Source: a virus
Direction: 5' to 3' (one strand)
IMG/VR virus record: IMGVR_UViG_3300043410_000467
Coordinates: 1-50,298 of that record
DNA length: 50,298 bases
Under the pieces are notes generated by a model, which saw nothing but the letters and a program-made list of their open reading frames with translations, searched no databases and had not been told where the DNA came from. Positions within the stretch are counted from its first letter, which is position 1. Every line of letters starts with the position of its first letter. This document shows positions 5,053-25,200 of this stretch, piece after piece. Made by a program: the position numbers and the translations under genes.

Positions 5053-5065
5053 GACATATTTAGCC

Positions 5066-5073: not shown

Positions 5074-5078
5074 AAAAT

Positions 5079-5624: not shown

Positions 5625-6424
5625 TATGTGTCTAAATGACTAATACCTAATTTGTTTCTAAATTCTTCTGTAAACTTCCCGTCAATTCTTAATCCGTATG
5701 TCTGAGCCATGACTCTGTTACCACCGTGCCAGTCAACGTCATTCCACCAGGCTGCTCTACAGTTAATACCATACTTCATTTTCTTTTCAGGATCCCATAG
5801 ATAGAATTGATTACGTGTATCGGGGCGAATATGTATAAACTCGTTACGATGTGGCATTACTACGTTAACCCCATTCTTTCTATCTAAATCTCTATGTTCA
5901 AAGGGTATTCCGTCGTGCTCTAAATGAAAGAATATAACACGACCAATATGCTCAAATAGTGTACCCTTTAATTGTAATACCCATTCAACTACACTAGGGA
6001 AATACTTACTTTCTGGGGTCATTTGACGTTCGCCCGGTCTATCGTTCCAATCACCTTCTTCCCATAGATAATAATAGATATATGGGTCATAGGCATTTAA
6101 TGCCATTTTTAAATATCGTGTGAATATATTGCGTTGTTGGAAGTTCTTAAAGTCTGTGGGCAATAGTTTTAATCCAGCTATTTTAATAGGATCATCATTA
6201 CTTAACTGTTGAAACTCTTCCCATGCTTGATATATTGGCTTCCAGTTATGTATATAACTCATGTCCTCGAACGTAAAGCCCGGGGCCATCCATGTACCTT
6301 CTTTAGCATATTCACGTGCTAATGCAAAGCCCGACATAATCTCGGGCTGTAGCGTGTCAAATGTGTCCATATCTAAGTATGGCGTCATGTCAAAATAGGG
6401 TTGATTATTAATACCTTTAATCAT
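5621..6424 (-). CDS. 2OG/Fe(II) oxygenase-like protein 5 (long form)
   Basis: At 267 residues this is the longest of the oxygenase-like proteins. An N-terminal helical part of about 150 residues (rich in Y and W, with 'YIYYYLWEEGDW') precedes the jelly-roll. The jelly-roll shows H177-R-D179 in 'PFEHRDLD', H233 in 'DVDWHGGN' and R246 in 'YGLRIDG'. 'WHGGN' followed by 'LRIDG' is a typical ending for this phage family. The start overlaps the upstream kinase-like gene through ATGATTAA, so the two are probably translated together. The stop overlaps that of the convergent oxygenase gene. Pairing with a kinase-like gene mirrors the kinase-like/radical SAM pair at 3165-5052. Confidence 0.6.
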   Translation of the reverse strand: MIKGINNQPYFDMTPYLDMDTFDTLQPEIMSGFALAREYAKEGTWMAPGFTFEDMSYIHNWKPIYQAWEEFQQLSNDDPIKIAGLKLLPTDFKNFQQRNIFTRYLKMALNAYDPYIYYYLWEEGDWNDRPGERQMTPESKYFPSVVEWVLQLKGTLFEHIGRVIFFHLEHDGIPFEHRDLDRKNGVNVVMPHRNEFIHIRPDTRNQFYLWDPEKKMKYGINCRAAWWNDVDWHGGNRVMAQTYGLRIDGKFTEEFRNKLGISHLDTY

Positions 6425-7100
6425 TTAATATCTTCTCAATAAAATCTTGTGGGTAGTTTGTTCTAAAACTCTCCCAACATAACTTGTCAAATAGTTCCCA
6501 AGGTTGCGGTTCAGTCCAGCTTATTCCTAGTGATTCTAAGTATTTACGCATCTCTACTCTACGATTTTCATGTATATGACTCTCAACTTCTCGAATAGTG
6601 ATATTTGTTTCGTATTTACCATATGTGAAGAAATAGTTAATACTCTTTAATTTATTGTTAACTATGAAATAACTTGAAGGATGCATGCTATATTTGTGAA
6701 TGCCCAATACTTTATGTACATTAATAATATCTGTCATTTGCTTACGCCAATTGGGTAATACTGTATCATAGTTATTCAAATCGCAATTAGCTTGTTGCCA
6801 GAAGTCTACTCCGTCAATTTCTAAGTATATCTTGCGTTCGTTATAGTCTATATCTAGTATATTAGGTATATGTGTGGGTGCTGTACTATGCATCAATTTT
6901 AGAAACTTTACCTCACGTTCCCATTTCTCATCCATTTTACCAGGGTCGATAACTTCATTGTGACCCTTGTGATAATCAGTATCGTTATAATACCATTGCA
7001 CAAAAGTTTTTTTATCTTCTGATATCAAACTGGTATAGATTAGATTATTACGACATTTACCTATGTTAGGTACGTCATTATAGTAGTATTCATACTTCAT
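6417..7100 (-). CDS. Kinase-fold-like protein B, probably catalytically degenerate
   Basis: This 227-residue protein is a paralogue of the protein at 4465-5052, with the same order of blocks: 'WEREVKFLKLM', 'IPNILDIDYNERKIYLE', 'WRKQMTDIINVHKVLGIHKYS', and 'YFIVNNKLKSINYFFTYG'. In kinase-like folds the H-x-D catalytic loop and the metal-binding DFG-type aspartate would fall in the last two blocks; here I see H-K-Y and N-Y-F instead. That suggests loss of phosphotransfer activity or a different activity. Start and stop are both coupled to neighbours: ATGA with the oxygenase gene upstream and ATGATTAA with the oxygenase gene downstream. Function is unknown; the kinase-like assignment is tentative. 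Confidence 0.45.
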   Translation of the reverse strand: MKYEYYYNDVPNIGKCRNNLIYTSLISEDKKTFVQWYYNDTDYHKGHNEVIDPGKMDEKWEREVKFLKLMHSTAPTHIPNILDIDYNERKIYLEIDGVDFWQQANCDLNNYDTVLPNWRKQMTDIINVHKVLGIHKYSMHPSSYFIVNNKLKSINYFFTYGKYETNITIREVESHIHENRRVEMRKYLESLGISWTEPQPWELFDKLCWESFRTNYPQDFIEKILND

Positions 7101-7738
7101 TTTTTATTGACGCCAATTTGCAATAAAAGTCTACTACCTGTTAAATTGTTTACGCTATGAATTCTTTTACCAACTAACATTCCCCATGTATGCTCTTTTA
7201 ATAGAGATTCGCCGGCTAGTTCAATTTTAGTATAATCATAAGGTGCAGCAACTATTAGCATCTTACCAATATGTTCTTCTTTAATATCATAAATCTTAGT
7301 AATAACATTGTCTCCACCGGCTTCAACAACAAAGTTAAAGACATAATCCACTGGATCTATATGCGGTAATAATATTGTTCCATCCGACAGTTTACATAGA
7401 TTGGGTTCTATAAACGTATACCCATCTCCCATCGTTTCGGTTAAGAATGGAATAGCATTTTCTTCTACCCACTTGATAACATCTTTGGGTGCAGTTAACA
7501 ATGAAAACTTTACCGGAGTTTCAGGGGTTGACCAAATATACTCATAAGCATCCTCTGGAGAGGGGAAATTAAATCCATCATTGGGCCATTCACCTGGTAC
7601 ATCATAACCAATCGTATCACAAAAATCTTTTTTATTATCTACGAATACATTGTAGAAAGGTGGTTCTTTAGATGCTTGAATACACGATGCTATTAATTCA
7701 TCTGGTAGTATGGGTAAATTAATCAATTGATAGCTCAT
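7097..7738 (-). CDS. 2OG/Fe(II) oxygenase-like protein 6
   Basis: This 213-residue protein has H126-x-D128 in 'LPHIDPV', H194 in 'RIHSVNN' and R203 in 'SRLLLQIG', the full set expected for a 2OG/Fe(II) oxygenase. I place the start at the ATG at 7738 rather than 7780. An exact TATAAATA (7744-7751, minus strand) lies 5 nt before it, and the 14 extra residues of the longer frame would be encoded within and beyond that promoter. The ending resembles the protein at 1417-2016, so the two are likely the closest relatives in the set. It heads an operon of oxygenase 6, kinase-like B and oxygenase 5. Substrate unknown. Confidence 0.6.
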   Translation of the reverse strand: MSYQLINLPILPDELIASCIQASKEPPFYNVFVDNKKDFCDTIGYDVPGEWPNDGFNFPSPEDAYEYIWSTPETPVKFSLLTAPKDVIKWVEENAIPFLTETMGDGYTFIEPNLCKLSDGTILLPHIDPVDYVFNFVVEAGGDNVITKIYDIKEEHIGKMLIVAAPYDYTKIELAGESLLKEHTWGMLVGKRIHSVNNLTGSRLLLQIGVNKK

Positions 7739-7743
7739 TAAAA

Positions 7744-7751
7744 TATTTATA
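7744..7751 (-). promoter_or_regulatory. T4-type late promoter TATAAATA, 5 nt from ATG (minus strand)
   Basis: An exact octamer on the minus strand ends 5 nt before the ATG at 7738. It overlaps the plus-strand octamer at 7750-7757 by 2 nt inside TATTTATATAAATA, so two divergent promoters are interlocked. A leaderless mRNA is predicted. Confidence 0.75.
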
Positions 7752-7757
7752 TAAATA
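7750..7757 (+). promoter_or_regulatory. T4-type late promoter TATAAATA, 5 nt from ATG (plus strand)
   Basis: An exact octamer ends 5 nt before the ATG at 7763, the same spacing as at 5079 and 7738. It shares two bases with the opposite-strand octamer at 7744-7751. A leaderless mRNA is predicted. Confidence 0.75.
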
Positions 7758-7762
7758 CCCGT

Positions 7763-8458
7763 ATGGTCAATTATTTGCACGAAACCAAAACTCCCTTTGA
7801 TAACTGTTATAATCGTTGGCGCGAAACTAGAGTAAACAAACTAATTTCATTTTTTGGTAATGATTGGACCGGTAAAAGAGTATTAGAATTGGCATGTGCA
7901 TATGGCAATATAGGGTTACATCTCAAAAGTTTAGGGGCTGATGTAACGTTCGCTGATGCTAGACAAAAACATTTAGATATTGTTTTACATAAGGACAATA
8001 CTGCAAAGACTATATTGTTAGACCAAGATAACAACTGGAATCTAAATGAAAGTTTTGATATTATCATACACTTTGGTGTATTATACCATTTAGATAACTG
8101 GCGCAGAGATTTACAATGTGCAATAAATCATAGTAATATTATCGTACTTGAATCTGCTGTAGCTGACTGCGATTATGAGTTTGAGTATAAACTAACTGAA
8201 GAAGATGAGGATGGTGAGAATGCGTTCAATACTATTGGAACCGTTCCCTCTGCTAAATCAATAGAATCTTGGTTGTCTGAACTAGATTGCAGTTATACTA
8301 GATTTGACGATAGTGATTTAAATACAAAATGGTTTAATTATGATTGGGTAGTGACGAACCCTGATTTATCAAATATAGTTGTTAAAACGTTCGAGGATAA
8401 ACCATTATACGGCGGGCGTAGGTTCTGGTTAATCAACAAGTCTCCATCTATCAGCTAA
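7763..8458 (+). CDS. SAM-dependent methyltransferase (class I)
   Basis: This 231-residue Rossmann-fold methyltransferase has motif I as 'VLELACAYGNIGLHL', an acidic end of strand 2 in 'ADVTFADAR', and the post-motif region 'FDIIIHFGVLYHLDNW'. The last block is typical of small-molecule or sugar methyltransferases of the UbiE/Methyltransf_11-23 kind. The C-terminal 'GGRRFWLINKS' is also seen in that group. It is probably transcribed alone from the late promoter 5 nt before its ATG. Its last 30 nt overlap the convergent oxygenase gene at 8429-9043. Substrate is unknown; its position inside the oxygenase/radical SAM island suggests it modifies the same class of target. Confidence 0.75.
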   Translation: MVNYLHETKTPFDNCYNRWRETRVNKLISFFGNDWTGKRVLELACAYGNIGLHLKSLGADVTFADARQKHLDIVLHKDNTAKTILLDQDNNWNLNESFDIIIHFGVLYHLDNWRRDLQCAINHSNIIVLESAVADCDYEFEYKLTEEDEDGENAFNTIGTVPSAKSIESWLSELDCSYTRFDDSDLNTKWFNYDWVVTNPDLSNIVVKTFEDKPLYGGRRFWLINKSPSIS

Positions 8459-9043
8459 GTAGTAAGATGCTTGGTGTACATGCATAGATATAGCGATCCT
8501 AGTATCTTCGATTGTCTGTTCATTGACTTCATGCCACATGAAACCAGGCCATGCTAGTAACTGACCTTCTTGTGGGTAGATAGTTATTGATTTTTGTTCA
8601 TACGGTGCCATTCCCGTAGACAATTCGAAAGGGTTATATAAAGTAATACTACTTGAGCCTGGGGGCACTTTATGATAATACGTCATTACCATTTCAGTAG
8701 AACTATGTGCGTGGCTGCGTAATCTAGATCCTTGCTTGAACTGATTAATCCAAGACCGTTCAATAGCAAGTGCAGTTGGGGCATAACCTATTTCTTCCCA
8801 CATTTTATATACTATATTTTTTAACCAGAACTTCAATGGTTTCATTGATTCTAAGTTAATTATGTCAGGCAAAACCCTGAGTGTAGTATCATGATCTCCG
8901 GCGGCAGTTTCTAATTTTCTGTTATCAGGCACTGATTCAAATATATCTGTTATCTCTTTTAGAAAATCCTCACCCAGTAAGTGTTTATCTTCCCAAAAGG
9001 TAGATGCTATTTTTATGGGGAAAACTGTCTGGCTCGTAATCAT
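8429..9043 (-). CDS. 2OG/Fe(II) oxygenase-like protein 7 (TIGR02466-like)
   Basis: This 204-residue protein has 'SWINQFKQGSRLRSHAHSST' (candidate ligands H111 and H113), 'YPQEGQLLAWPGFMWHEV' (H171) and 'EDTRIAISMHV' (R182). The pattern closely follows the conserved phage and bacterial 2OG-oxygenase-like family with an N-H-x-H-x-x-S motif, a P-x-G-x-L turn and a final R-I-S-x-S strand. H-x-H replaces the classic H-x-D, as in other members of that family. It is convergent with the methyltransferase gene (30-nt overlap) and divergent from the GNAT-like gene, sharing a 23-nt gap with no exact late promoter. Substrate unknown. Confidence 0.65.
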   Translation of the reverse strand: MITSQTVFPIKIASTFWEDKHLLGEDFLKEITDIFESVPDNRKLETAAGDHDTTLRVLPDIINLESMKPLKFWLKNIVYKMWEEIGYAPTALAIERSWINQFKQGSRLRSHAHSSTEMVMTYYHKVPPGSSSITLYNPFELSTGMAPYEQKSITIYPQEGQLLAWPGFMWHEVNEQTIEDTRIAISMHVHQASYYLADRWRLVD

Positions 9044-9066
9044 ATCAGTAAATACTTATCGCTTAT

Positions 9067-9609
9067 ATGACATACAAAATTATTCCATGGTCTACTGATT
9101 TAGACCTTTCTAATTTTTATAGTGAAGCCGATAAAAGAGGCTTTACAAACAATAGTAGCCAACAGGCTATGATAGATTGTTTTAAAAATGAACGTGAATG
9201 GAACGTATGGGTATTGTATTACAATGATATTATTGTGGGTAGTGTTGCGGCACATTCTATTGACGAAGGATATAGGATATGCGCTAGAACATGCGTACTT
9301 ACAGATTTACTACCAACAACTACTGTACGCACACGCAACCAAATAGTCACACATCAGCACGTGACTGCACAGTTTTTCATGCCCGCGTGTATTGAATGGG
9401 TGGGTGACAAAGATATGTACATTACTACCCACCCCAGTGACACTGGTACCCAACGATTAGTACATAACATATGGGCACCCAGTCTAGTTAAGACTGGGGT
9501 ACTAAGTAAAGCATTTGAAAAATACTATAGAGGTCATTTACAAACGTTTTGGAAGTTGAATAAAGATGTATTCTTAAGTCAATTAAAACGTTATGAACGA
9601 TGGGTTTAA
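9067..9609 (+). CDS. GNAT-like protein of unknown function
   Basis: This 180-residue protein starts with 'DLSNFYSEADKRGFTNNSS', then 'WNVWVLYYNDIIVGSVAAHS'. The second segment resembles the central beta-strands of GCN5-type acetyltransferases ('w-x-v-x-x-x-g-x-i-v-G-x-x-x'). Similar proteins occur in marine T4-like phages without an assigned role. I do not see a clear Q/R-x-x-G-x-G/A acetyl-CoA loop, so activity is uncertain. It is convergent with the FkbM methyltransferase gene, and the two stop codons share the bases TTAA at 9606-9609. An AGTAAATA octamer at 9047-9054 is a weak late-promoter candidate, 12 nt before the ATG. Confidence 0.4.
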   Translation: MTYKIIPWSTDLDLSNFYSEADKRGFTNNSSQQAMIDCFKNEREWNVWVLYYNDIIVGSVAAHSIDEGYRICARTCVLTDLLPTTTVRTRNQIVTHQHVTAQFFMPACIEWVGDKDMYITTHPSDTGTQRLVHNIWAPSLVKTGVLSKAFEKYYRGHLQTFWKLNKDVFLSQLKRYERWV

Positions 9610-10481
9610 AATATAATTTTATATGATGTTAACCGTTTGACCATGTCGTTGTATGATTCGCCAGACATAACTTCAACTAAATCAGTTGGTTGTTCATTTT
9701 CTGAAGGAACGGCTAAGATATTACTAACTCCACCGTCACCGAATGGATTGGCTTCATTTGTTTTAAACGTAGGTCCTAATGGTTTTGTTCTGCATGTAAC
9801 CCAATATTGTCTATAGTCACGTGTATCTAAAAACTCGTAACACTCTGCCCAATCATCTACACTGATTGCTTCATAGAATATTACTGGACGAAACTTTTTA
9901 ATAGTCTTGACAGCGCCCTTAAGTACATCAAGTTCTGCGCCTTCTACATCAATCTTCATTAATGTACATTTTTCTAGGTTAAATGAATCTAGTTTCTTTA
10001 ATGGTACTTTGATAACATCTTCAATATCATCAGTAATTGTAGTCAAATCTCCATAATTGCCGGATGCGTTTTCATCAAAGTTCTTTAGTTCTATACTACC
10101 TGTTTTATTACCTAATGCAGTATGATACAATAGAATGTTCTTATCCTGACAATTGTACGCGGCTACACAAAAATGACTGGGATGTGGCTCAAAAGCCATT
10201 ACGTTGCATCCTACCTCTTGATTTATAGCCCTAGCGTGATATCCGATATTTGTGCCAATGTCTAAGTATAGTGAATCTTTGTCTAAGTATCTGGACATAA
10301 TTTTAATCTCAGCGTGACAGTATTCACCAAACAATGCGATTGATTGACTTACAATTTGGTCATTTTTGTATATAATAAAATCACCTACTAAGCTATCTGT
10401 TTTAGCCAAAGAGGGTGCTAGTTTTTCAAAATATTCATTCAATGATGACTTGGTTTCTTCGGGTTGTTGAGTGTTTTCCAT
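9606..10481 (-). CDS. FkbM family methyltransferase
   Basis: This 291-residue SAM-dependent methyltransferase shows motif I 'LYLDIGTNIGYHARAI', 'VMAFEPHPSHF' at strand 2, and the signature 'LMKIDVEGAELDVLKGA' followed by 'FRPVIFYEA'. These define the FkbM family, whose members O-methylate sugars or polyketide-like products. The N-terminal 60 or so residues precede the core domain. In phages such enzymes often accompany glycosyltransferases and may decorate glycans. It follows the SleB-like gene after a 38-nt gap. GATATATA, two changes from TATAAATA, lies exactly 5 nt before the ATG, so it may have its own late promoter. Confidence 0.85.
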   Translation of the reverse strand: MENTQQPEETKSSLNEYFEKLAPSLAKTDSLVGDFIIYKNDQIVSQSIALFGEYCHAEIKIMSRYLDKDSLYLDIGTNIGYHARAINQEVGCNVMAFEPHPSHFCVAAYNCQDKNILLYHTALGNKTGSIELKNFDENASGNYGDLTTITDDIEDVIKVPLKKLDSFNLEKCTLMKIDVEGAELDVLKGAVKTIKKFRPVIFYEAISVDDWAECYEFLDTRDYRQYWVTCRTKPLGPTFKTNEANPFGDGGVSNILAVPSENEQPTDLVEVMSGESYNDMVKRLTSYKIIF

Positions 10482-11118: not shown

Positions 11119-13146
11119 TCATAGCATATCCCAGCAGTCACAGTTACATAGTATAACATCTGCGATAGCTTCTTCGGGTGTCAATATTGTCTGCCCTGCT
11201 GTAGTTGTGACAATACTGAGATTGGGCGGGATTAGTGTGGTTTCTTTGGAACCTGCTAAACTTCCCGGTACGATTGCCGCACCAGTTATAACTGGCGTAT
11301 TAGCAATTTTAGGGCTAACGTCATATCCTTCATTAGGACTGGTGCCCGGTGTATATGGACTTTGTTTGGGTAGTATTAACGGGTCGCCAGTAACGTCATT
11401 GTCTAATACTGCTCCAGTTAATGCTAAACGTGAACTATTTCTAGCTTCACGCAATGCACCTATTAAACTATTAGCTGACGTAGGGTCTGCAATGTTTTCT
11501 AAGAACGGGGCCATACCACCTACTGCTGTCTCATTGCCGTAAGTTCCTATACTATCTATAAAACTTACAACATCAGCCGGAGTGCTAGTTAAATCAGCGA
11601 TTCCTGGCAATGCTAGTGCCCTTGCATCTAACTCTTTTTGTATATACTCAGCTATGGTTGCGTATGTACTAATTAGATTTCTTACGTCCTCTGTATCCGT
11701 TCCCAATATCGCTATGATTTCAGCATTAGCCTGATCTATATAACCTTGTAAATCATAATAAGGTCCGGGCCCGTTCAACAATGAGAACATTTGAATATAT
11801 GTACTGGTTAACGAACTTGTCTGCACTTTAATTAGTAACTCTTGCAACTGCTGCCATGGATAATGCAAATCTGTCATTGTACCAAAGAAATCAAACATAG
11901 TGTAAGTATCGTCAACACCAGATCCCTTTGCTATGATACCATATGCCGCACTAGCTAATGTTGTGTTAGTGGGGACGTTAGTGCCATTTACTCCTAATCC
12001 ATTAACGTTTTCCAAATTCATTACAACTTGCGAAAACTTCTCAATACTCATTGCTTGAATATTCTTAATTTGTAGCATAGATATGCTAAAGGCTTCTGCC
12101 GCATATGCAATGTCTGCTGGAATGATACTTCTGTATTTGTCACCTATGCCTAACCCAGGTTTAATATCAACAGTACCGTTGGAGTATATTAAATGATATG
12201 TTTTGCTATTTGTCGGTAATGGTATTGCGTTGAATGTTGGGAAGGTTAGTGATGCATAACTGTTAGGGAACAATACTTTAGGATTCAATAAATCAGCTAA
12301 CGTAGTTGCAGTTGCTTGGAAGTTTAACAATGTACACACATCTGCTAAGTCATTATTTGTAATAATACAGAAAGCACCGTACATTAATTTCTGCTGTTCT
12401 TCTGTTGCACGTTGACCACTAAGAATAGTATTGATATCTGACGCATTCAATCCTGCACTTAACAATGCTAAGTTAACTGCTTTGGTTAACGCATTATTTT
12501 TGTTTAATGTGCGTAATAAATTATCAGGATAGCCGAAGTCTTGCATTGTCGTTAAGTCAATTGCTCTACCACTCGCAATTAAATCCTGACCCCAATAGAA
12601 TGTACTTAAGTTGACCCCTGTAATATCTCCCGATATCAGGTCATTCATATTACTGTAAGTACCATCTAAAAACGTTTTAGATTTAGATAGCGCGGCAATT
12701 GTGCCATTTAACTGTGTTTTCTTACCGTAACACGTATTAATTGTGCTTAAGAAATCACTATAGCTACCGTTGTTAATATAAAAACTCTGATAAGCTGACC
12801 ATGGTGCTAAACGCAAGAATCCATAGCTAGTCATCTCATCTGTATAAGTTAGATTAGTAAAGAACGTTGGTGGGCTATTACCTAATGCAGGAATAGTATT
12901 AGATCCTATGTGAATAAGATTGTCATAAGTTAATGCAGATACGCCCGGCTCATTAATTAAGTCATATGCTAAACGAATAGATTGTGACAAATATCCCAAA
13001 CATGTAGTACTTACTACGGACCCCGGTGTATATGTAGCTTCATCAACACTTGTACCCATGTAGGCTGCCGCATTAGGATTAATGCGTAAACCTATATTTT
13101 GCAACAGTGTACCCATTGCATTAATTTGTAATGGACTATAACTCAT
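11119..13146 (-). CDS. Large protein of unknown function, probable virion component
   Basis: This 675-residue protein has no family I recognise. It is rich in T, N, S, A and L, without a signal peptide or clear membrane segment, and reads as an all-helical scaffold with short loops. Its C-terminal 100 residues are low in structure and proline-rich ('LPKQSPYTPGTSPNEGYD'), ending in a cysteine cluster, 'CNCDCWDML', which could bind metal or crosslink. The start overlaps the PAAR gene by ATGA, so the two are translationally coupled, and it precedes the lysis gene. That context suggests a tail-tip, spike-associated or injected protein. It shows no RCC1 or LamG repeats. Confidence 0.6.
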   Translation of the reverse strand: MSYSPLQINAMGTLLQNIGLRINPNAAAYMGTSVDEATYTPGSVVSTTCLGYLSQSIRLAYDLINEPGVSALTYDNLIHIGSNTIPALGNSPPTFFTNLTYTDEMTSYGFLRLAPWSAYQSFYINNGSYSDFLSTINTCYGKKTQLNGTIAALSKSKTFLDGTYSNMNDLISGDITGVNLSTFYWGQDLIASGRAIDLTTMQDFGYPDNLLRTLNKNNALTKAVNLALLSAGLNASDINTILSGQRATEEQQKLMYGAFCIITNNDLADVCTLLNFQATATTLADLLNPKVLFPNSYASLTFPTFNAIPLPTNSKTYHLIYSNGTVDIKPGLGIGDKYRSIIPADIAYAAEAFSISMLQIKNIQAMSIEKFSQVVMNLENVNGLGVNGTNVPTNTTLASAAYGIIAKGSGVDDTYTMFDFFGTMTDLHYPWQQLQELLIKVQTSSLTSTYIQMFSLLNGPGPYYDLQGYIDQANAEIIAILGTDTEDVRNLISTYATIAEYIQKELDARALALPGIADLTSTPADVVSFIDSIGTYGNETAVGGMAPFLENIADPTSANSLIGALREARNSSRLALTGAVLDNDVTGDPLILPKQSPYTPGTSPNEGYDVSPKIANTPVITGAAIVPGSLAGSKETTLIPPNLSIVTTTAGQTILTPEEAIADVILCNCDCWDML

Positions 13147-13424
13147 GGGACAAAAACGTCTGGACTACCTTGTACGATACTATGACCACAACTATTGCCT
13201 GAGCCTACTCTGAGAACAGGAGCTCCTTCTGCAAATACAGTAGGACTCCCATCAGTAGTTGTAGCTGAGGCATGAGGGGGATGAGGTTTACCCCAAGGTG
13301 CGTGAGGAGTTATAGGACTAACATGTAACCCTACTTTGATACCATTACTGAACACGGTTCCTGCACCTCTTACGATTGCACCACCGGGTTGATTTGTATC
13401 TCCTACACGACTTAATGCTGCCAT
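13143..13424 (-). CDS. PAAR-domain spike-tip protein
   Basis: This 93-residue protein matches the PAAR family. It has a start-proximal 'RVGDTNQPGG', then 'GAGTVFSNGIKVG', 'GSPTVFAEGAPVLRVGS' and 'CGHSIVQGSPDVFV'. The repeated 'GSPxVF' and 'RVG' elements form the small cone capping the membrane-piercing spike of contractile tails, with a metal ion held by His/Cys residues. It is full length for the family. GGATAAT before the ATG provides a ribosome site (AGGA). It lies between the Sm-like and the 675-aa genes and overlaps the latter by 4 nt. This is the clearest structural evidence for a contractile-tailed phage in the window. Confidence 0.85.
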   Translation of the reverse strand: MAALSRVGDTNQPGGAIVRGAGTVFSNGIKVGLHVSPITPHAPWGKPHPPHASATTTDGSPTVFAEGAPVLRVGSGNSCGHSIVQGSPDVFVP

Positions 13425-13425
13425 A

Positions 13426-13728
13426 TTATCCTAATATAATCTTTTTATCTGGAATCTGGATACCAGTTGTAGCTTCGATGTATTTCATCTTAATACTATC
13501 TTCAGTAATAGCAAAGATAGCAACACTATTAGTATTTAGTGTAACGTCACCGCCAGGATCTGCGGTAAACATACTAGGAATCATTTGCATTCCCTTTTGT
13601 CCGGGTGCAATACTAACGGGTTCTGAAATTGTTACATATCCATTATTATCTAACGCTGTAACTTTAGCGATGAGTTCTTCACCGCTATTCATTTTGAATG
13701 TGTATACTTGTCCTACTTCTAGTGTCAT
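13426..13728 (-). CDS. Sm-like small phage protein
   Basis: This 100-residue protein starts 'VGQVYTFKMNSGEELIAKV', which matches the Sm1-type strand pattern (five-stranded SH3-like barrel), followed by 'VTISEPVSIAPGQKGMQM' and a conserved end, 'YIEATTGIQIP'. Homologous proteins are widespread in T4-like marine phages and annotated as Sm-like or hypothetical; an RNA-binding role is assumed, not shown. The ATG shares one base with the glutaredoxin stop (TAATG), a coupling junction. Despite its place beside the PAAR gene I would not call it a structural protein. Confidence 0.65.
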   Translation of the reverse strand: MTLEVGQVYTFKMNSGEELIAKVTALDNNGYVTISEPVSIAPGQKGMQMIPSMFTADPGGDVTLNTNSVAIFAITEDSIKMKYIEATTGIQIPDKKIILG

Positions 13729-13958
13729 TATACGCTTTCTGTTAATTTGGTTCTTAATTCATTGAACCCGCCCACTAATTCACCGTCCATAAAAATTTGA
13801 GGTACTGTGCGGGCTGTGGGTACGGCTTCTAACAAATCTTCTTTTGTCCATCCGTCACCGATTTTTCTTTCTTCAAACTGAATACCCTTGCTCTCAAGTA
13901 ATTTCTTAGCTTGGTCACAGAAAGGGCAGTTATACTTACTCCATACGATAGCTGACAT
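13728..13958 (-). CDS. Glutaredoxin
   Basis: This 76-residue glutaredoxin has the active site C-P-F-C in 'KYNCPFCDQAKKLL', the cis-proline 'RTVPQIF' loop and the terminal 'GGFNEL' that contacts glutathione. Both cysteines are present, so it can do dithiol chemistry and would re-reduce ribonucleotide reductase encoded just upstream. Length is typical of phage glutaredoxins. A strong ribosome site, AAGGAGAA, precedes the ATG, stronger than those of its neighbours. It follows nrdB after an 11-nt gap, the expected functional order for a phage nrd operon. Confidence 0.95.
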   Translation of the reverse strand: MSAIVWSKYNCPFCDQAKKLLESKGIQFEERKIGDGWTKEDLLEAVPTARTVPQIFMDGELVGGFNELRTKLTESV

Positions 13959-13969
13959 TATTATTCTCC

Positions 13970-15073
13970 TTATAAACTTGGTAACTTATCAAATTCAACT
14001 ACGTCACTCATAACACCGATAACGTAGTTAGTTGATTCATTTTCTTGTAGTGCTGTCTGTTTCTTATTGATATTAACATGTTTGTTAAACCATGGAATAG
14101 GACTGCTCTTTGGGTGATTCTCATCATAGCGAATTCCGATTTCTTTCAATGCGTTAAATGCTGTATAATCAACAAAATCTTTAAGTATATCAGCATTTAG
14201 TCCAATCACGACGCCGCGGCTAAATAAGTATTCTGCCCATTCTTTTTCTTCACGTATAACGTCCATGTACATTTCATACACTTGACGTTCGCAATCGATC
14301 TTAGCTTTAGCAAAGCGCGGATCTTCTTTGACAACTTGATTAATTATGAACCCTGTCCATTCTTTGTGCAATACTTCATCTTGTAGAATCAAGCTAATAA
14401 TGTTGCCGTTACCAATATAAATCTTATTCTCGACCATTGCTAGACTTGTAGCAAAACTTACCATGAATCGTAATGCTTCTAGTGCGTAACTTGCATTGAG
14501 TGCCATCCAGATTGCATTGATATGTTGTTCTTCAGTAAACGAATTGATTCCCAACTCTTTATCACAATTAATCTTGTGTAAGATATCATAGTGCTTGCCA
14601 ATGCTAGAAGCCATTTCAACAATCTCTTTTGTATCATGGATCTTGTTGAATTCTTCTTTGGGTACACCATATACATTACGAATGATATGACTATAACTCT
14701 TTGAATGAATACTTGTTTCAAAGAAGCCCCAAGTTAATGTCAATGCTTCTAGTTCTGGGATACTGCATACAGGACCTAACACTTGGCTTGGAGCACGACC
14801 TTGAATACTATCAAGTGCTGTCTGACGTAACAAGTTGCTAGTAAAGATATGTTTAACAGCCTCACTAGCTTCTTTGTGGTCAATCTTGTCTTTTGTTAGA
14901 CTAATTTCTTCAGGTACCCAGAAGAAACCACGTGCGGTTTCTTCATACTTTTGTATCTTTGGATATTTAACTTCTTCAAAACGCTGAACGGTAACTGGAC
15001 CTTCAGGGTCTAAAAACATTCTACGTTTCAAATAATTAGTTTGTTTACTAATATTGTACTGTTCTTTACTCAT
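13970..15073 (-). CDS. nrdB: Ribonucleotide reductase class Ia small subunit (NrdB)
   Basis: This 367-residue R2 protein holds the di-iron centre and tyrosyl radical that drive ribonucleotide reduction with NrdA. By alignment with E. coli NrdB I see D88, E119, H123, the radical tyrosine Y127 ('HSKSYSH'), the Glu of 'YALEALRF', and E and H in 'QDEVLHKEW'. W52 in 'FFWVPEE' and the C-terminal tyrosine in 'STNYVIG' are also kept for radical transfer. One oddity is 'FETSIHSKSY', which spaces the Glu and His as E-x-x-x-H, where E. coli and T4-type proteins have E-x-x-H. The ATG follows the aceA stop after 1 nt, with no clear ribosome site, so translation is probably coupled. Confidence 0.95.
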   Translation of the reverse strand: MSKEQYNISKQTNYLKRRMFLDPEGPVTVQRFEEVKYPKIQKYEETARGFFWVPEEISLTKDKIDHKEASEAVKHIFTSNLLRQTALDSIQGRAPSQVLGPVCSIPELEALTLTWGFFETSIHSKSYSHIIRNVYGVPKEEFNKIHDTKEIVEMASSIGKHYDILHKINCDKELGINSFTEEQHINAIWMALNASYALEALRFMVSFATSLAMVENKIYIGNGNIISLILQDEVLHKEWTGFIINQVVKEDPRFAKAKIDCERQVYEMYMDVIREEKEWAEYLFSRGVVIGLNADILKDFVDYTAFNALKEIGIRYDENHPKSSPIPWFNKHVNINKKQTALQENESTNYVIGVMSDVVEFDKLPSL

Positions 15074-15074
15074 A

Positions 15075-16301
15075 TTAGAATTGATCCGCTTCAGTTGAGT
15101 GCGTGTTTGCTACAGTAGATGTGGCGCCAACTGCTGTACTGATTGCATCAAAGTAACTAACGCCAACTTCACGTTGATGTTTAACAGTTGTGAAGCCACG
15201 CTCTTGTGCGGCAAACTCACGTTGTTGCATTTCGCTATAACCAGCCATGCCACGTGCCTTATACGCTTCTGCTAGTTCAAATGTAGCTAAATTAACACTA
15301 TGGAAACCTGCTAGCGTAATGAATTGGAACTTATAGCCCAATTGACCTAGTTCACGCTGGAATGTTTCGCATTCATCTTCACTTAAAAACTTGCGCCAAT
15401 TAAAGCTAGGACTGCAATTATAAGCAAGCATTTGATCTGGAAACTGTGCGTGTATAGCGTCTGCGAATTTCTTAGCTTGTGCAATATCAGGTGTGCTAGT
15501 TTCAAACCATAAGAGATCAGCGTAAGGGGCATAAGCAAGACCTCTGCTAATACAAGCATCGATACCGTTCTTAAATTTGTAGAAACCTTCTTCAGTACGC
15601 TCATTTATAATAAAGTCCTTATCTAGTGGGTCGTGGTCACTGGTAATCAATGTTGCACTTTCTGCGTCGGTGCGAGCCATAATAACAGTATCGACTCCTG
15701 CAACGTCTGCGGCTAAACGTGCGGCGTTTAGTGTGCGAATCATTTGGCTTGTTGGTACGAGTACTTTACCACCTAAGTGACCGCATTTCTTTTCACTTGC
15801 TAGTTGGTCTTCAAAGTGTACACCAGCAGCACCTGCTTCAATCATAGCTGACATAAGTTCGTAAGCGTTTAGGGCTCCGCCAAATCCCGCCTCTGCATCA
15901 GCAACTATAGGAAGGAAGTAATCTTGTACTACATCACGATCTTCACCGTTTGCATATTGTTCAGCAAAGTCAATTTGATCTGCACGACGGAAAGCGTTGT
16001 TGATACCTTTAACAACTTTAGGTACGCTATCAACTGGATACAGACTTTGATCTGGGTATGTTTGGTTTGCTGTATTGTTAGCGCCAGCCACTTGCCAGCC
16101 ACTTAGATAGATTGCTTTTAAACCTGCTTTAGCATGTTGCACAGCCATTTGGCCATTGTAGGCACCAAGGGTGTTGATATAGGGTTCAGTAGCTAACAAT
16201 TCACGCAACTTAAATGCGCCTCGCTTTGCTAGTGTGTGTTCAATCTGTACGCTACCTTGTAGTTTACGGACTGTGTCTTGTGTGTAGTTTCGTTTCTTCA
16301 T
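15075..16301 (-). CDS. aceA: Isocitrate lyase
   Basis: This enzyme splits isocitrate into succinate and glyoxylate, the first step of the glyoxylate shunt. The 408 residues cover the full catalytic barrel and lack only the first 25 or so residues of E. coli AceA. All active-site blocks are intact: 'YLSGWQV' (65-71), 'DAEAGFGG' with the metal ligand D135, 'KKCGHLGGK' with the catalytic C173, 'MARTDAE', and 'YNCSPSFNW'. The end '[12 protein letters not shown]...STEADQF' is typical of bacterial enzymes. AAAGGACC provides a ribosome site. It lies 9 nt after nrdA and 1 nt before nrdB, so it is co-transcribed with ribonucleotide reductase. Malate synthase is not in the window. Confidence 0.95.
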
Positions 16302-16310
16302 TTTGGTCCT

Positions 16311-18641
16311 TTATAATACGCAACTTTCGCAGTATTCATCATCTTCAATTATTTCTTGTTTAACAAAAGGTATGATGTTATCTTCTTGTAGTGCTGCCTT
16401 AGCACCTACTTTATTAATCAAACTATAATATATAGTTTTGATTCCCCACTTGTAAGCAAGCATTAGATTCTTACTTATCAATGTTCCTGGCACTTTGCCA
16501 CCTTCAAAATACGCAGGATTATAGAATGTATTTGTGCTGATAGATTGATCGATATATGCAGCCAATACTGCCGCAGTCTTTAGATAATCAACACAGTCAC
16601 GCTGTTCCCACATCAATTGATATCGGTTCTTTAGTCGTTTGTATTCTGGTACAACTTGTACAAATGATCCTGCTTTACTTTCTTTAACTGAAATCATTTC
16701 CATTGGCATTTCAATACCATTGGTTGAATTTAAAACGACAGAACTAGATTCTACTGGAGCTACTGCCATAAGTGTAGCATTACGAATGCCATACTTCAAT
16801 AGATTTTGGCGCAATCCTTCCCAGTCTAGATTACCACTAGGTGTAAAATCTGCTAACTCATTAACTCCTGGGCTACGGCGTTCCCAGGGAAAGATACCTT
16901 GACCATAGAATGTTTGTGCTGACTTTTGACATGCACCACGCTCTTGTGCTAGTTCTACACTTGCCTCAGTGAGGTAGTATGCTTGATGTTCCATCCAACG
17001 CTTAACTTCAGCAAGTGCTTCTGGAGTTCCATACTTGAAGCCACGCTTGGCGTGCCAGTATGCTAAATTGGTAATCCCTATACCAAGAGGCTCGAAATCT
17101 AAGTTAGCTAACTTACTCTGTACGCTGAGGAAGTCTTGATAGCTAAGGAGATTACTTAGACTACGCACTAATACCCTAGCACTCTTACGCATTTCTTGAG
17201 GAGTCTTAAACGCTCCCCAATTCTGGCTACCCAAAGTACATAGGGCAATTCTGCCAGCCTCGTCTTCAATGCGCTGAAATGGCTTTGTAGGTAATAGTAT
17301 TTCTTGGCAAAGGTTACTCTGATAAATCGGGTCTAGTTTGGTATCAAACGGACCTTGATTAATTACGTTATCAATGAATACTAGATAGATACGACCTGTA
17401 TCTGTTCTTTCTTTTAGTATTCCATTCTTAAAAATTTCTACTGCTGGTAACACTTTCTTTTTGAGACCACGCTTGTGTTCATAGTGTTCGTATAATGTTT
17501 GAAATTCTTCGCTATCTCTATAGTATGCTTCATATAAGTCTGGTACATCATGCGGATCAAACAATGTAATATTTTCATTGTTCTTAAAACGATTCCAGAA
17601 CATCTTGTTGACTACCACGCTGTAGTCCATTTGTCTCACTCGGGTCTCTTCCGTTCCCTGATTATTCTTTAATACGATTAGGTCTTCAAACTGATAATGC
17701 CATACTGGGAATGTAACTGTGCAACTTGCATTACGTACACCACCTTGACTACAACTACGTAGATCACCGAACCACTTCTTTAAGAAGGGAATCATACCAG
17801 TGTGCTTAATCTCTCCGTTACGAATAGGAGCACCTAGTGGGCGAATGCGTCCAATCTCTAATCCAATGCCAGCACGTTTGCTAGCATACTTAGCCATCAT
17901 TTCTCCAGCGGCAAAAATGCTATCAAGAGTATCATCACTAGAAATGAGTACACAGCTACTAAACTGTTTGGTTGTAGTACCAAGGCCAGCCAAGACAGGA
18001 GTAGCAAGAGTAAAATGCCCGTCGCTAGCACATTCGTAGTATTCTTTGACATATTTTAACCTTTTATCTTTAGGCTCATTGTGGAATGCAGTGGCGGCTG
18101 CTATTGCATATCTTACCTGAGGAGTCTCAAATATTTGACCAGTAGCACGGTTCTGTACTAAGTACTTTTCTGCTAATTGAGCGATAGCCGCATAGGTGTA
18201 ATTTTCGTCCTTGCTATGGTCTATAAACAAATCAATGATATCCCATTCTTCTTTGGAATACCACTCTAACAATTCATGGGTGTACATCCCTAATTCTACG
18301 TTCTTTTTAACGATATTGTAGAGTGGGGGTGGATTATAGCTGCCATATACTTCTTTACGTAGCATCGACACTTTCTGTCTTCCTGCTACATATTGATAGT
18401 TTACGTTATTGATATCTGGATTTTCTGTTTCGTCAATCAAGTTTACCATTGCTTTTAGCAATAGTTCATCGATAGTTTCGGTACTGATTCCATCGTGTAA
18501 TTCAATTTGTGCTTTAATCTCAATCATGCTGGGACTGACATTATCTATCCCTCTGCATCCGTATGCTACCTGTCTCTGTATCTTGTTTATGTCTAATGGT
18601 ACTGTTTCTCCGCTTCGTTTTACTACATTTATGTTGTTCAT
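16311..18641 (-). CDS. nrdA: Ribonucleotide reductase class Ia large subunit (NrdA)
   Basis: This is the catalytic R1 subunit, reducing ribonucleoside diphosphates to deoxy forms for phage DNA synthesis. The 776 residues start with an ATP-cone domain (about 4-95), then the ten-stranded barrel. Catalytic residues are complete: C230 in 'QFSSCVLI', N443/C445/E447 in 'SNLCQEILL', C468 in 'IALCTLGS', the tyrosine pair in 'KTIYYSL', and the C-terminal redox pair C771/C774 in 'YCESC'. No intein or frameshift is seen, unlike many phage copies. The ATG overlaps the preceding gene by 4 nt; AGGTG is a plausible ribosome site. The intact ATP cone suggests allosteric activity control is kept. Confidence 0.97.
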   Translation of the reverse strand: MNNINVVKRSGETVPLDINKIQRQVAYGCRGIDNVSPSMIEIKAQIELHDGISTETIDELLLKAMVNLIDETENPDINNVNYQYVAGRQKVSMLRKEVYGSYNPPPLYNIVKKNVELGMYTHELLEWYSKEEWDIIDLFIDHSKDENYTYAAIAQLAEKYLVQNRATGQIFETPQVRYAIAAATAFHNEPKDKRLKYVKEYYECASDGHFTLATPVLAGLGTTTKQFSSCVLISSDDTLDSIFAAGEMMAKYASKRAGIGLEIGRIRPLGAPIRNGEIKHTGMIPFLKKWFGDLRSCSQGGVRNASCTVTFPVWHYQFEDLIVLKNNQGTEETRVRQMDYSVVVNKMFWNRFKNNENITLFDPHDVPDLYEAYYRDSEEFQTLYEHYEHKRGLKKKVLPAVEIFKNGILKERTDTGRIYLVFIDNVINQGPFDTKLDPIYQSNLCQEILLPTKPFQRIEDEAGRIALCTLGSQNWGAFKTPQEMRKSARVLVRSLSNLLSYQDFLSVQSKLANLDFEPLGIGITNLAYWHAKRGFKYGTPEALAEVKRWMEHQAYYLTEASVELAQERGACQKSAQTFYGQGIFPWERRSPGVNELADFTPSGNLDWEGLRQNLLKYGIRNATLMAVAPVESSSVVLNSTNGIEMPMEMISVKESKAGSFVQVVPEYKRLKNRYQLMWEQRDCVDYLKTAAVLAAYIDQSISTNTFYNPAYFEGGKVPGTLISKNLMLAYKWGIKTIYYSLINKVGAKAALQEDNIIPFVKQEIIEDDEYCESCVL

Positions 18642-19081
18642 TTTGCACCTATTTTTAGTTGTAAGTCTGTCAGGTCTATCTTACGCTTGATTGTAAAGTC
18701 TTTTGAATAGTTATTTACTACGGTCTCGGGCCAGTAATTAAGTACATATTTTGCGCTATCTACCAGGACTAATACTACGTCCTCACCGTTTTTGTCGGTG
18801 GCCTCGACCAATTCAATATCTGTAATCCCTAGTAATAACAAAGTATAACACATACCTAATGCTCTTGCAACAGTACAATAGGTGTTTTCTACCAAAAGTT
18901 CCCAAGGATCGGGCCAACTTTCACTATCCAAAATATGTAGATGATGGTTGACTAATGGGGCTTTTTGCCACCATTTGTCAATTTCTACGCATTTGGTTTT
19001 TGTGTCAGACTGCTCAATCTGACTTCTAAGATCGTACCAGCTTCTTAGTCTGGCTTCATAACTCAATTGAAATACATTCAT
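18638..19081 (-). CDS. Conserved phage protein of unknown function upstream of nrdA
   Basis: This 147-residue protein contains 'IDKWWQKAPLVNHHLH', 'WPDPWELLVENTYCTVARAL' and 'KYVLNYWPETVVN'. The WW, WPDPW, 'ENTYC' and 'ARALGM' blocks recall hypothetical proteins found beside metabolic genes in T4-like phages. The invariant C, H and D residues hint at a transglutaminase-like or cysteine-hydrolase fold, but this is a guess. I took the ATG at 19081; a GTG at 19102 would extend it by seven residues and overlap the glycosyltransferase gene. It ends in ATGA with nrdA, so it belongs to the nrd operon. Confidence 0.6.
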   Translation of the reverse strand: MNVFQLSYEARLRSWYDLRSQIEQSDTKTKCVEIDKWWQKAPLVNHHLHILDSESWPDPWELLVENTYCTVARALGMCYTLLLLGITDIELVEATDKNGEDVVLVLVDSAKYVLNYWPETVVNNYSKDFTIKRKIDLTDLQLKIGAK

Positions 19082-19095
19082 CACGAATGTACTTA

Positions 19096-19803
19096 TCACC
19101 ACTCTAACTTGTCATTACGTTTTGTAGTTCTGCCCTCAAACGGACGAGCCAAGATAGTTGTATCTTCTTTAGAGCTTGGGATATCATATGCATACAAACC
19201 TTGATGTGTAATATGAAACAGGTCTGCACGTAGCATAATATCTAATGGGGCATTGATTCCCATTTGTAATACGTATGCTAGCAAGTTCTTTGCTACTTGA
19301 GGGTCAATGCTGTATGCATGAGCACGACAAATGAAGAGCCAGTTAGGCCCTTCACTAGCGTGTGGTGGGATTGGATAAATCTTCCAACCTTGTTTAGCCC
19401 ACTCTTGACCACCTAAATAACAGATGGAATTATAACTCTCATGGTTTTCAAATCGTTTTACCATGACAGAATCATGCTCAAGGATAACAATAGGTCTATC
19501 AATTAATGCACAATGACGCCATAAACTAATATGACTTAATGCACAAGCGACTTCACCTCTAGTTAGATAATGATCGGTAATTTTAATCATATCCATAAAG
19601 CTATCGTTCTTTAAGTTATCCGGTTCTTTGATGATACCTTTAGTAGTACCATCATATGCATCCCATACTTTATATGGCATACCAACTTGGCGACAACTAT
19701 CTTGTGCCATCGCACTATATTTTTCACTGTTAGCGTTTCCTTTAACAGTAATGATGTATGCGGCTTCGACCGACATATTGTTACTACGATATAAATTTAA
19801 CAT
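19096..19803 (-). CDS. GT25-like glycosyltransferase
   Basis: This 235-residue protein resembles glycosyltransferase family 25, the LPS galactosyltransferase/collagen glucosyltransferase type. 'AAYIITVKGN' is the first strand. 'LTRGEVACALSHISLWRHC' matches the hallmark G-E-x-x-C-x-x-S-H-x-x-x-W segment. 'PIVILEHDSVM' replaces the usual LED-D-D metal-binding motif with E-H-D, a noticeable change. 'GINAPLDIML' follows in the acceptor half. It would transfer a sugar to a glycan or protein. The start follows the upstream methyltransferase stop by 2 nt without a good ribosome site; an internal ATG nine residues on is an alternative start. The set of three sugar-related genes lies directly after the giant RCC1/LamG proteins. 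Confidence 0.65.
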   Translation of the reverse strand: MLNLYRSNNMSVEAAYIITVKGNANSEKYSAMAQDSCRQVGMPYKVWDAYDGTTKGIIKEPDNLKNDSFMDMIKITDHYLTRGEVACALSHISLWRHCALIDRPIVILEHDSVMVKRFENHESYNSICYLGGQEWAKQGWKIYPIPPHASEGPNWLFICRAHAYSIDPQVAKNLLAYVLQMGINAPLDIMLRADLFHITHQGLYAYDIPSSKEDTTILARPFEGRTTKRNDKLEW

Positions 19804-19805
19804 TG

Positions 19806-20444
19806 TTATAACTTTTGAAATGCTGTTTGCCAGCTATCTTGTGTTTTGATTAAATGAAGTTCATGCCAATGACATTGAATGAAAAACTCTACTGCCATTC
19901 TAGGTGACATTTGTGCAGCTTTCATCCCGTTTTCATCTTTATATTGCCAATGAACTGCGTCATCACAAAGAATAACACCGCCCTTTTTTAGCAACTTCCA
20001 AGACAAAACTAAATCAGTTAAGACTGCGTTTGCTTTATGATCTCCATCGATATAAATCAATTCTGCTTGTACACCCTTATTAATTAAATCAATAAGACCA
20101 TCCTCACTGTGTTTTCTAATATATTCTACGTTTTGATATGTGCATACACTAACATTGTGAGCAAAGTTTTTTTGTACCGCATCAGGATCTTCATCCATAT
20201 CAGTACTACCCACATGTGGATCAATAGCATAGATTTTTAAGTTTTTGTTATGTGGGGTTAGAACTTCTGATAACCAGAACGTTGTTCCACCCTCAAACAC
20301 ACCCACTTCAATGATAGTACTAGGGACACCGTAATAGTTTACTAACCATTCAATGTTCGACTTAGCACCACCATTCGCTTTGTTGCCTTTGTCATAGGCA
20401 TGATTGAAGTCATTGTGGGTAAATATATAATTAGCTGTTACCAC
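19806..20444 (-). CDS. Class I SAM methyltransferase (Methyltransf_24-like)
   Basis: This 212-residue methyltransferase has 'TIIEVGVFEGGTTFWLSEVL' as motif I, 'IYAIDPHVGS' at strand 2, 'AELIYIDGDHKANAVLTDLV' with the conserved D-G-D-H, and 'LLKKGGVILCDDAVH' at strand 5. The D-G-D-H followed by D-D is typical of cephalosporin-hydroxylase-like and sugar O-methyltransferases that bind a divalent metal. It starts with GTG at 20444, within the 3' end of the glycosyltransferase-methyltransferase fusion gene (14-nt overlap). A phage glycan-capping role is plausible from the neighbours. Substrate unknown. Confidence 0.75.
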   Translation of the reverse strand: MVTANYIFTHNDFNHAYDKGNKANGGAKSNIEWLVNYYGVPSTIIEVGVFEGGTTFWLSEVLTPHNKNLKIYAIDPHVGSTDMDEDPDAVQKNFAHNVSVCTYQNVEYIRKHSEDGLIDLINKGVQAELIYIDGDHKANAVLTDLVLSWKLLKKGGVILCDDAVHWQYKDENGMKAAQMSPRMAVEFFIQCHWHELHLIKTQDSWQTAFQKL

Positions 20445-22258: not shown

Positions 22259-25200
22259 TTATTGCGGTAAGTAACCACCAATTGTACCAGCATCTATCAA
22301 GTTGATACCTGTTCCGATCTGTACTGGGCTAGATACTACGTTCATACCAGAATTTGAACCTACTTGATATGATGTATTCAATCCCCAAGCAAACAATGCA
22401 TTAGAACCATTTGTAGCTAAGTTAAAATCATTACCTGCATTGATACTACCCCAAGTACCTGATCCAATTTGAACTGGGCTTGATGTACTAAAGCCTGGTA
22501 TTAATGTTCCACCAAATGTGTTATATGGCATGGATTGGTTATACGTTCCTACACCTAACTCACCGTATCTATTTTGTCCAGAACCATATAATTCACCAGT
22601 TGGTGCTACCCACCAATTAGTGTTACCAGATGTGCTCCACGTAGCAGTCATTAACCATTTACCTGATGTAGGTATAGATTGTGGTGCCCATGATGATGGA
22701 AGTTGTATTGGGCTGGATGTATTAGCTGTAGTACCATCCATCAATTGACCATAGCCATTATATCCCCAACCCCATAATGTGCCGTCACTACGCATTGCAT
22801 ATCTGTTTACATCACCGTTAAGTGATAGTGATACCCACTTACTTGTACCTATTTGTACAGGGCTTGAGCGATATGCAACAGTACCATCACCTATTTGTCC
22901 GTTCGTATTTAAGCCCCAACCCCATAATGTGCCATCGCCTTTAATCACGTGTGTTGTTGTGCCACCAGGTCCACCGGCAGTAATATCAACTATACCCACA
23001 CCAGCCATTAACTGTACTGGGTTTGATCTATCTACTGTATCATTCAATCCTAACTGACCTATGTTATTGTATCCAAACACCCATAGATCGCCCACGTTGC
23101 TTACAGCGTATGTGCTGTAATCCCCGCAACTAACTTTACTCCATGTTGTTGGGAAGGGTAAGGTTGCAACGTCTGTTCCTGCCACGTTGTTAGCTATAAT
23201 CTGTGTAGGTGATGATTTAGTTGCTGCTGCTAAAGAGTATCCCATGCCCAATTGACCGTTATATCCGTTACCCCAGCCCCACATAGTACCATCTGTTTTG
23301 ATACCTACCCAATGACTTCTACCACCAGCTACAGTAGCCCAACTTCCGCCACCTGCAACTTGAACGGGACTTGACTTGTTAACAACAGTACCGTCACCTA
23401 ACTGTCCTGCACTATTTAATCCCCAAGTCCATAATGTACCGTCCGCTCTAATTCCGGCGGCAGCAGCTTGAATGGCTGCTACGTATACCCAGCTGCCTGG
23501 AATTTGAACAGGGTTAGAACGTGAGATAGTAGTACCATCACCTAGACCCGCATCACCGTTATATCCTGAGGCCCATAATGTTCCGTCTGAGCGTACTCCG
23601 TACAGAGCAGGGTTTTGAGATGATAATGACTTCCAAGAAACACCTTTAACTGCAGGATCGGCTCCCCACGTATACATGTTGTTACTAGAATTCAATGCTA
23701 GTGTATGTCTAGTACCAGCACTTACTGCACCCCAACTGCCAACGATTTGTACTGGGCTTGCGGATCCAGATGGTGTCTGACTTCCCATCAAAATAGGACT
23801 TATATAATATCCATCAGATGTACCTGGTCTTGCAAGACCACCGTATGCATTGTTACCCCAAACATATAGTTTATTGTTATTATCAATTACTGTTGCTGTA
23901 TATTGATTGACTTGTATTTGAGTATAGCTACCCCAGTTAGATCCTGTAGTTGGTTTAGGATATAGTAGTGGGTTCATTGTGCCTGTGTTAATTTGTATAG
24001 CTATTGATTTTGAAACAATTGTGTTATCAGCCATTTGTCCTACTGAGGCGCCACCTGCATTAAACATCAAACCATTGCTTCCACCATATACACCCAAACC
24101 AACTATGTTAGAAACACCAGTGCCTAATACAGTAAACGATACGCTTTGACCAACTGGGTTCTGTGCCATTTGTACAGGACTACTACGTGATACAGTATCA
24201 TTGGTATTCAACTGACCTTCTATGTTTCTGCCCCACATCCATACCGTTACGCCAGCATTGATCGGCACTGCGGCTGTAGACCAACCTCTAGTATTCACAA
24301 ATGTAAAGCTACTACCTGCTTGTACCTGTACCGGGCTTGACACCTTAGTTTGATATATGTACTGATATGCGGCTGTTTGTACAGGGCTATAATAGTTAAG
24401 TGTGTTGTTTATACCAAATTCACCTGTATCATTTCTACCCCAAGCCCACACAGTTGCGTCAGTAGCCTTCACTGCCTGTGATGAACTTGCACTTGCATAT
24501 ATTTGAGAGAATGAGTCGTATGTTATTGCACCTGTACTAAATGGTACTACGTCTGTGACACCAACATTCAACTCATTAGGCACAGCAGCAGTGTTAGTAG
24601 TAAGTGTGTAATTGTTATAACTATTATCAACTATGGTGGCACTTTGTAGTGTTAATAATGCTGTTTGTCCTGCTGTTATTGCGCTTATATTTGTGCTTGC
24701 ACTTTGTGTATTTGTTAAATTACTTGTAGGTACAGTGTATGCTCCTGTATAAACTAATACATCACGTACTATTCGTGCATTTGATGCATAGCCATAGAAT
24801 GGACTATATCCACTAGGCTGAGTGAATAGATACCATGCGCCACCTGATACCAAAGCTGCGTGTGAAGTTTGAGCACTTAAATCTTGTCCAGTGAACGCAC
24901 CCGCGAGCGCGCCATTACAATAGAAGTTGATATTAGTGGATGTAGCTGTTGTAGCATCAATTGTTATAGCAACGTGATTCCACTGCAAATATTTTACTAA
25001 GTATGATGTTGTAGTTACTGTACTTGAACTTGCCGCGGTAGTCCATATAAAATACAGGTTAGTACAGTTACCGTAGCTTGATCCTGGACCATAACCCCAT
25101 TGCCATCTTCCACCACTAGAACCACCCCACCAGCAATTAAATAAGGTATAGGATGCGCCGTCCATATAGAATGGATAGATAAACATTTCCATAGTAACTT

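Follow-up and report, generated by a model that had tools for sequence, protein, structure and literature searches.

The locus considered here raises the question of what a phage might gain from an isocitrate lyase (ICL), be it carbon saving, glycine or relief from stress, and why the gene for this enzyme should be coupled to those for ribonucleotide reductase (RNR). The stretch of DNA analysed, in the following called the window, is a complete IMG/VR record of 50,298 bp, a linear viral contig that is probably a genome fragment.

Viral aceA genes are already known. Gene families of aceA and aceB have been described in ocean viromes (Hurwitz 2013, PMC4053976), and the marine phage TARA_ERS478052_N000008 possesses an aceBA operon (Nishimura 2017, PMC5332604). 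Two further reports deal with the ICL of viruses that were assigned to Pelagibacter and Woesiales (PMC10721903) and with an aceA gene from a lake-sediment virus, which is of non-host origin and has no host homologue (PMC12783922). In view of these reports and of the many viral contigs described below, ICL is not the unusual phage gene for which an earlier note on this DNA had taken it.

Organization of the aceA locus

The aceA gene of the window and its neighbours are arranged as follows, in the order of their reading direction:

18638..19102 (-): 154-aa ORF, overlapping the start of nrdA; 27 related loci have it in this upstream position
16311..18641 (-): nrdA, large subunit (776 aa) of class Ia ribonucleotide reductase, upstream of aceA (PF02867; NF006578 836 bits, cut-off 813)
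16302..16310 (-): spacer between nrdA and aceA, 9 nt, AGGACCAAA, with a Shine-Dalgarno-like AGGA inside (read directly)
15075..16301 (-): aceA, isocitrate lyase of a phage-specific subfamily, 408 aa, ATG start (Pfam, NCBIfam, residues, tree)
15074..15074 (-): spacer between aceA and nrdB, 1 nt, TAA-T-ATG (read directly)
13970..15073 (-): nrdB, small subunit (367 aa) of class Ia ribonucleotide reductase, downstream of aceA (PF00268; NF006576 288 bits, under the cut-off of 346)
13728..13958 (-): glutaredoxin gene (grx), 76 aa, after nrdB (PF00462)
13426..13728 (-): 100-aa ORF after grx that is conserved across 39 related loci (Sm_like in Pfam at E=0.005, below cut-off)

The nrdA gene ends with TAA and is followed by the spacer of 9 nt and the ATG of aceA. 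Direct reading of both spacers thus bears out the earlier note, which had described aceA as complete and as separated from nrdA by 9 nt and from nrdB by 1 nt. The spacer of a single nucleotide between aceA and nrdB suggests that the two genes might be translationally coupled. A sequence scan around the operon gave 40 promoter-like matches, no more than the 44 obtained by chance, and 13 terminator-like matches, compared to 8, so that it says little about the transcription of these genes.

Shortly past the RNR operon, a PAAR-motif spike-type protein is encoded at 13143-13424 (-). The region 22259-35350 (-) encodes a protein of 4363 aa that consists mostly of RCC1 repeats (PF00415, 31 stretches) and concanavalin-like lectin domains, after which comes an ORF of 4938 aa at 35350-50166.

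Identity of the aceA product

As judged from profiles and residues, the aceA product of the window is a full-length isocitrate lyase (EC 4.1.3.1). It matches the Pfam ICL family PF00463 with E=1e-104 and the isocitrate lyase equivalog NF011645 of NCBIfam with 680 bits (cut-off 562, residues 3-408), and its Pfam matches are confined to ICL/PEP_mutase. An identity as the 2-methylisocitrate lyase PrpB was rejected (TIGR02317: 116 bits, cut-off 354), and no PHROGs family matching the window ICL was found.

The catalytic blocks, which the earlier note had described as intact, are indeed so, since all 20 catalytic or substrate positions checked are conserved; they are invariant in 82 ICLs of the window clade, 97 other viral ICLs and 119 bacterial ICLs. 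The checked residues include, in window numbering and with what we take to be the equivalent positions of M. tuberculosis ICL1 in brackets, S67 G68 W69 (91-93), D84 (108), D135 (153), H162 (180), K171-K172-C173-G174-H175 (189-193), R210 (228), E267 (285), N295/S297/S299 (313/315/317) and T329-L330 (347-348). The roles of the catalytic KKCGH motif, the metal-binding aspartate and the substrate-binding residues are presumed from M. tuberculosis structures.

An AlphaFold model of the window ICL (pLDDT 82, with a low-confidence catalytic loop 173-177) superimposes on the solved ICL 7cmx with a TM-score of 0.91 at 62% identity. Compared with bacterial AceA (PF00463; 1igw, 1f61, 6lrt, 3i4e), the window protein has the same fold, length, catalytic and substrate residues and KKCGH motif, and its identity to the solved bacterial structures is about 58-62%. 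However, its N-terminus corresponds to roughly residue 25 of bacterial AceA.

Viral relatives and phylogeny

A scan of IMG/VR revealed 181 stretches encoding ICL relatives, and the following arrangement counts refer to the best 80 of these 181 loci, whose ICL copies are 87-100% identical to that of the window. ICL lies beside nrdA and/or nrdB in 54 of the 80 loci. The order nrdA-aceA-nrdB occurs in 38 of them, with which five further truncated loci agree, and nrdB is located upstream of aceA in 11, mostly as nrdA-nrdB-aceA-grx. A DesA-type fatty-acid desaturase follows within three genes after ICL in 21/80 loci, and the arrangement is a different one in the last five. Since these 21 and 5 loci form an ICL branch outside the nrd operon, coupling to RNR is not obligatory. 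Varied additional ORFs occupy the nrdA/nrdB junction in relatives.

The phage ICL branch is therefore real and widespread, with well over 100 further viral contigs, and not an accident of assembly. The synteny in many viral contigs and the complete phage C48C1 indicate that the window ICL belongs to a genuine phage genome and, as a host-type gene in such a genome, is by its context an auxiliary metabolic gene. As a side observation, a divergent member of the window clade (L239, L240) shows the order aceA-iscU-iscA-class II aldolase. Another phage contig of 338,510 bp (L006) encodes, at 18589-20378, a TctC-type tricarboxylate-binding protein and ClpS (Pfam), which are adjoined by an ORF that we judged by eye to be Hsp20-like.

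In the phylogenetic tree, the window ICL is placed in a virus-only clade of 22 representatives (SH-aLRT 99), which joins a clade of 27 representatives typified by phage C48C1 (Kyanoviridae, complete genome of 156 kb). The joint group of 49 representatives is again virus-only (SH-aLRT 98) and persists after the addition of 16 more divergent bacterial ICLs. Its members are also distinguished by particular residues, as R33, Y48, Q51, A/S74 and V381 replace W, L, N/G, D and T/A of bacterial AceA. Four of these (R33, Y48, Q51, V381) are fixed in 151/151 sequences of the phage-only group. At position 74, each of the 151 has Ala or Ser, in contrast to Asp in 119/119 bacterial, 28/28 other viral and 16/16 added bacterial ICLs.

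The earlier note had proposed a phylogeny as a check, with placement inside one bacterial genus, along with bacterial flanks, as the sign of a chimera. Since the window aceA lies in a virus-only clade and outside any single bacterial genus, this reading fails. We regard the probability that aceA is an assembly chimera or bacterial contamination as practically negligible and rejected this explanation, given the 80 loci with near relatives (the best of 181 viral loci), the virus-only clade and the synteny, whereas nothing was found in its favour. A bacterial ICL copy with more than about 68% identity was likewise not found in pattern-based or sampled genome searches, a scope that leaves room for a closer bacterial copy elsewhere.

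Selection and gene history

Measured against the window copy, ICL has a median dN of 0.084, compared to 0.249 for nrdA, 0.203 for nrdB and 0.226 for grx. The synonymous sites of ICL are near-saturated (pS 0.70; range 0.70-0.80 across the compared genes). ICL is thus under strongly purifying selection.

At the amino-acid level, the distances of nrdA are closely correlated with those of nrdB (Mantel r 0.86, with 0/300 permutations as high), whereas those of ICL show no correlation with nrdA and nrdB (r 0.07 and 0.12). The same is seen at codon positions 1+2, with r 0.08 and 0.07 for ICL versus nrd and 0.83 for nrdA versus nrdB. Since the divergence of ICL does not track that of nrdA and nrdB, a repeated exchange of ICL or its repeated insertion into RNR operons is suggested. 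The ICL tree, the inner branches of which are weakly supported, shows at least 19 changes of arrangement type. However, the uncoupling is weaker at third codon positions (r of 0.57-0.60 between ICL and nrd and of 0.76 between nrdA and nrdB), so that we make this claim with caution.

Malate synthase and possible hosts

Malate synthase (PF01274), for which the earlier note had recommended a search, was found neither in 14 records of the window subfamily (13 related contigs of 44-374 kb and the complete phage C48C1) nor in four further Kyanoviridae/C48C1-type contigs of 137-164 kb. It was also absent among the ORFs of the window scanned with Pfam, a set without the ORF of 4938 aa. The search as such works, since it detects aceB in 8 of the 24 records that represent other viral ICL clades. 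Other clades with a malate synthase gene close to ICL, upstream or downstream, are represented by L243, L247, L250-L252, L255 and L259-L265.

The window thus shows an ICL without malate synthase rather than a complete phage glyoxylate shunt (aceBA), and because it is a fragment, aceB might be located elsewhere in the genome of this phage. In phages of this subfamily, the second step thus seems to be left to the host, unless the classical shunt is not run at all.

Concerning the host, the IscU protein of one related contig (L037) has its closest matches in Burkholderiaceae (up to 89%), which gives a hint that phages of the window type might infect this family. An ICL of their own is present in 145/151 Burkholderiaceae genomes, and a host that already possesses ICL would leave the need for a phage copy unexplained. 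Hosts of the cyanophage kind found no support, since Photo_RC (PF00124) is missing in the 18 ICL-bearing records searched for it.

2-Oxoglutarate and the modification cluster

The earlier note had also pointed to seven proteins consuming 2-oxoglutarate (2OG) nearby and had supposed it to be of possible importance there that ICL makes succinate without using 2OG. Two of these proteins (855-1424 and 8429-9043) match a 2OG-type Pfam family, whereas about four more possess only HxD/E...H motifs. Moreover, 2OG would not be spared by ICL, since this enzyme drains its precursor isocitrate. With most of the claimed enzymes also being motif-only, the link to 2OG is unsupported. The genes concerned belong to a cluster at 298-10481 with radical SAM/SPASM proteins, a class-III aminotransferase, 2OG oxygenases (two Pfam-supported, several motif-only), methyltransferases and an FkbM methyltransferase, and by its gene content this cluster has the appearance of an island for the modification of peptides or glycans.

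Discussion

Since aceA is complete, conserved, phage-borne and located inside an RNR operon, its coupling to the synthesis of DNA precursors can fairly be inferred. We consider it reasonably probable that ICL is co-expressed with RNR and keeps carbon in the form of C4 acids for nucleotide precursors, with the help of the host malate synthase. A tailed phage would express a catalytically complete ICL within the operon nrdA-aceA-nrdB-grx, and the additional ICL would cleave isocitrate to succinate and glyoxylate during infection. The glyoxylate would be condensed with acetyl-CoA by the host malate synthase. Carbon would then be kept as C4 acids (oxaloacetate, aspartate) rather than lost as two CO2, and these acids might supply nucleotide precursors as the phage RNR draws on them. 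We infer co-transcription, enzyme activity, the direction and use of the flux and the role of the host malate synthase. The model agrees with published data from an independent infection experiment with phage HP1, in which host aceA/aceB rose about 3-fold and nrdA/nrdB and a ferredoxin ranked with the most strongly induced genes of both virocells (PMC7082346). A link to growth on acetate or fatty acids is possible, given the 21 related loci with a DesA-type desaturase within three genes.

The main rival to this carbon-saving model is that ICL serves mainly as a source of glyoxylate, which would be aminated to glycine by a transaminase or alanine dehydrogenase. The glycine would feed purine synthesis and provide dTMP synthesis with one-carbon units, and malate synthase would not be needed. 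The subfamily without phage malate synthase and the RNR context would fit, and for Polynucleobacter it has been proposed that the host alanine dehydrogenase converts glyoxylate to glycine (PMC7522526). The window also encodes a class-III aminotransferase at 1991-3223. However, this protein passes no specific NCBIfam cut-off and sits in the separate modification-gene cluster, and the genes found next to ICL in the relatives include none for glycine or one-carbon metabolism, so that we judge this use of ICL to be unlikely. A lower probability is given to a function under iron limitation or oxidative or UV stress, where the shunt would avoid steps that yield NADH and depend on iron, in concert with glutaredoxin and the Fe-S assembly proteins of the phage. 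Glutaredoxin is part of the operon, IscU/IscA are encoded near or beside ICL in several relatives, and 14 of 26 records encode IscU in a count confined to ICL-bearing ones. In contrast, the window and several relatives have no IscU, and phages commonly carry Fe-S assembly genes in any case (PMC7082346).

It is similarly doubtful that ICL helps to use acetyl-CoA from the breakdown of lipids or storage polymers within a remodelling of lipids. Besides the 21 loci mentioned above, in which a putative hydrolase is sometimes encoded between ICL and the desaturase, a desaturase is present in 9/13 related contigs, compared to 0/12 over the cut-off in records of other clades. However, the window has no desaturase and the hydrolase match is below the cut-off. 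An idea of phasins and PHB, derived from short ORFs in L006 and L075-077, was dropped, since these ORFs have no Pfam or NCBIfam match. Finally, ICL could be a passenger at an insertion hot spot, kept by mobility and not by function. The gene mobE is located at the nrdA/nrdB junction of T-even phages and is read from the nrdA transcript (PMC2988022), and window aceA is inserted between nrdA and nrdB in a like manner. The varied extra ORFs at this junction and the uncoupled divergence of ICL would agree with such an origin. Unlike mobE, which encodes an HNH endonuclease, aceA encodes a metabolic enzyme. The strong purifying selection on its coding sequence, the invariant catalytic residues, the lack of an endonuclease domain and the many loci with ICL away from nrd make a mere passenger very improbable, and a mobE-like homing element was rejected because the protein has no HNH domain.

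As in TARA_ERS478052_N000008 and the ocean-virome aceA families, a phage-borne ICL can be read as an auxiliary metabolic gene of the glyoxylate shunt. However, TARA_ERS478052_N000008 pairs ICL with malate synthase, whereas the window ICL stands alone inside the RNR operon, and the contigs with both aceB and ICL found here belong to other ICL clades. The window gene also resembles the cases of PMC10721903 and PMC12783922 as an environmental phage ICL, but the passages of these reports considered here describe neither synteny with nrdAB nor a phage-only subfamily. Neither an ICL located within the RNR operon of a phage nor an ICL subfamily confined to phages was found described in the literature searched, mostly outside subscription journals; as far as this literature shows, these two aspects are new.

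Conclusions

For phage genes that alter central carbon metabolism, the evidence usually consists of single annotations. The present case is a coherent enzyme lineage restricted to phages, which is under strong purifying selection and physically linked to deoxynucleotide synthesis in many viruses. We propose only tentatively, and with some doubt, that the phage-only ICL with R33, Y48, Q51, A/S74 and V381 may be tuned for infection, exchanged as a functional cassette and repeatedly placed in the RNR operon. If this were true, the tuned ICL could, for instance, outcompete isocitrate dehydrogenase or escape feedback control, and carbon routing and deoxynucleotide synthesis would be joined in a single unit under phage control. 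Where HP1 raises host aceA/aceB and nrdAB (PMC7082346), phages of the present lineage would bring their own genes.
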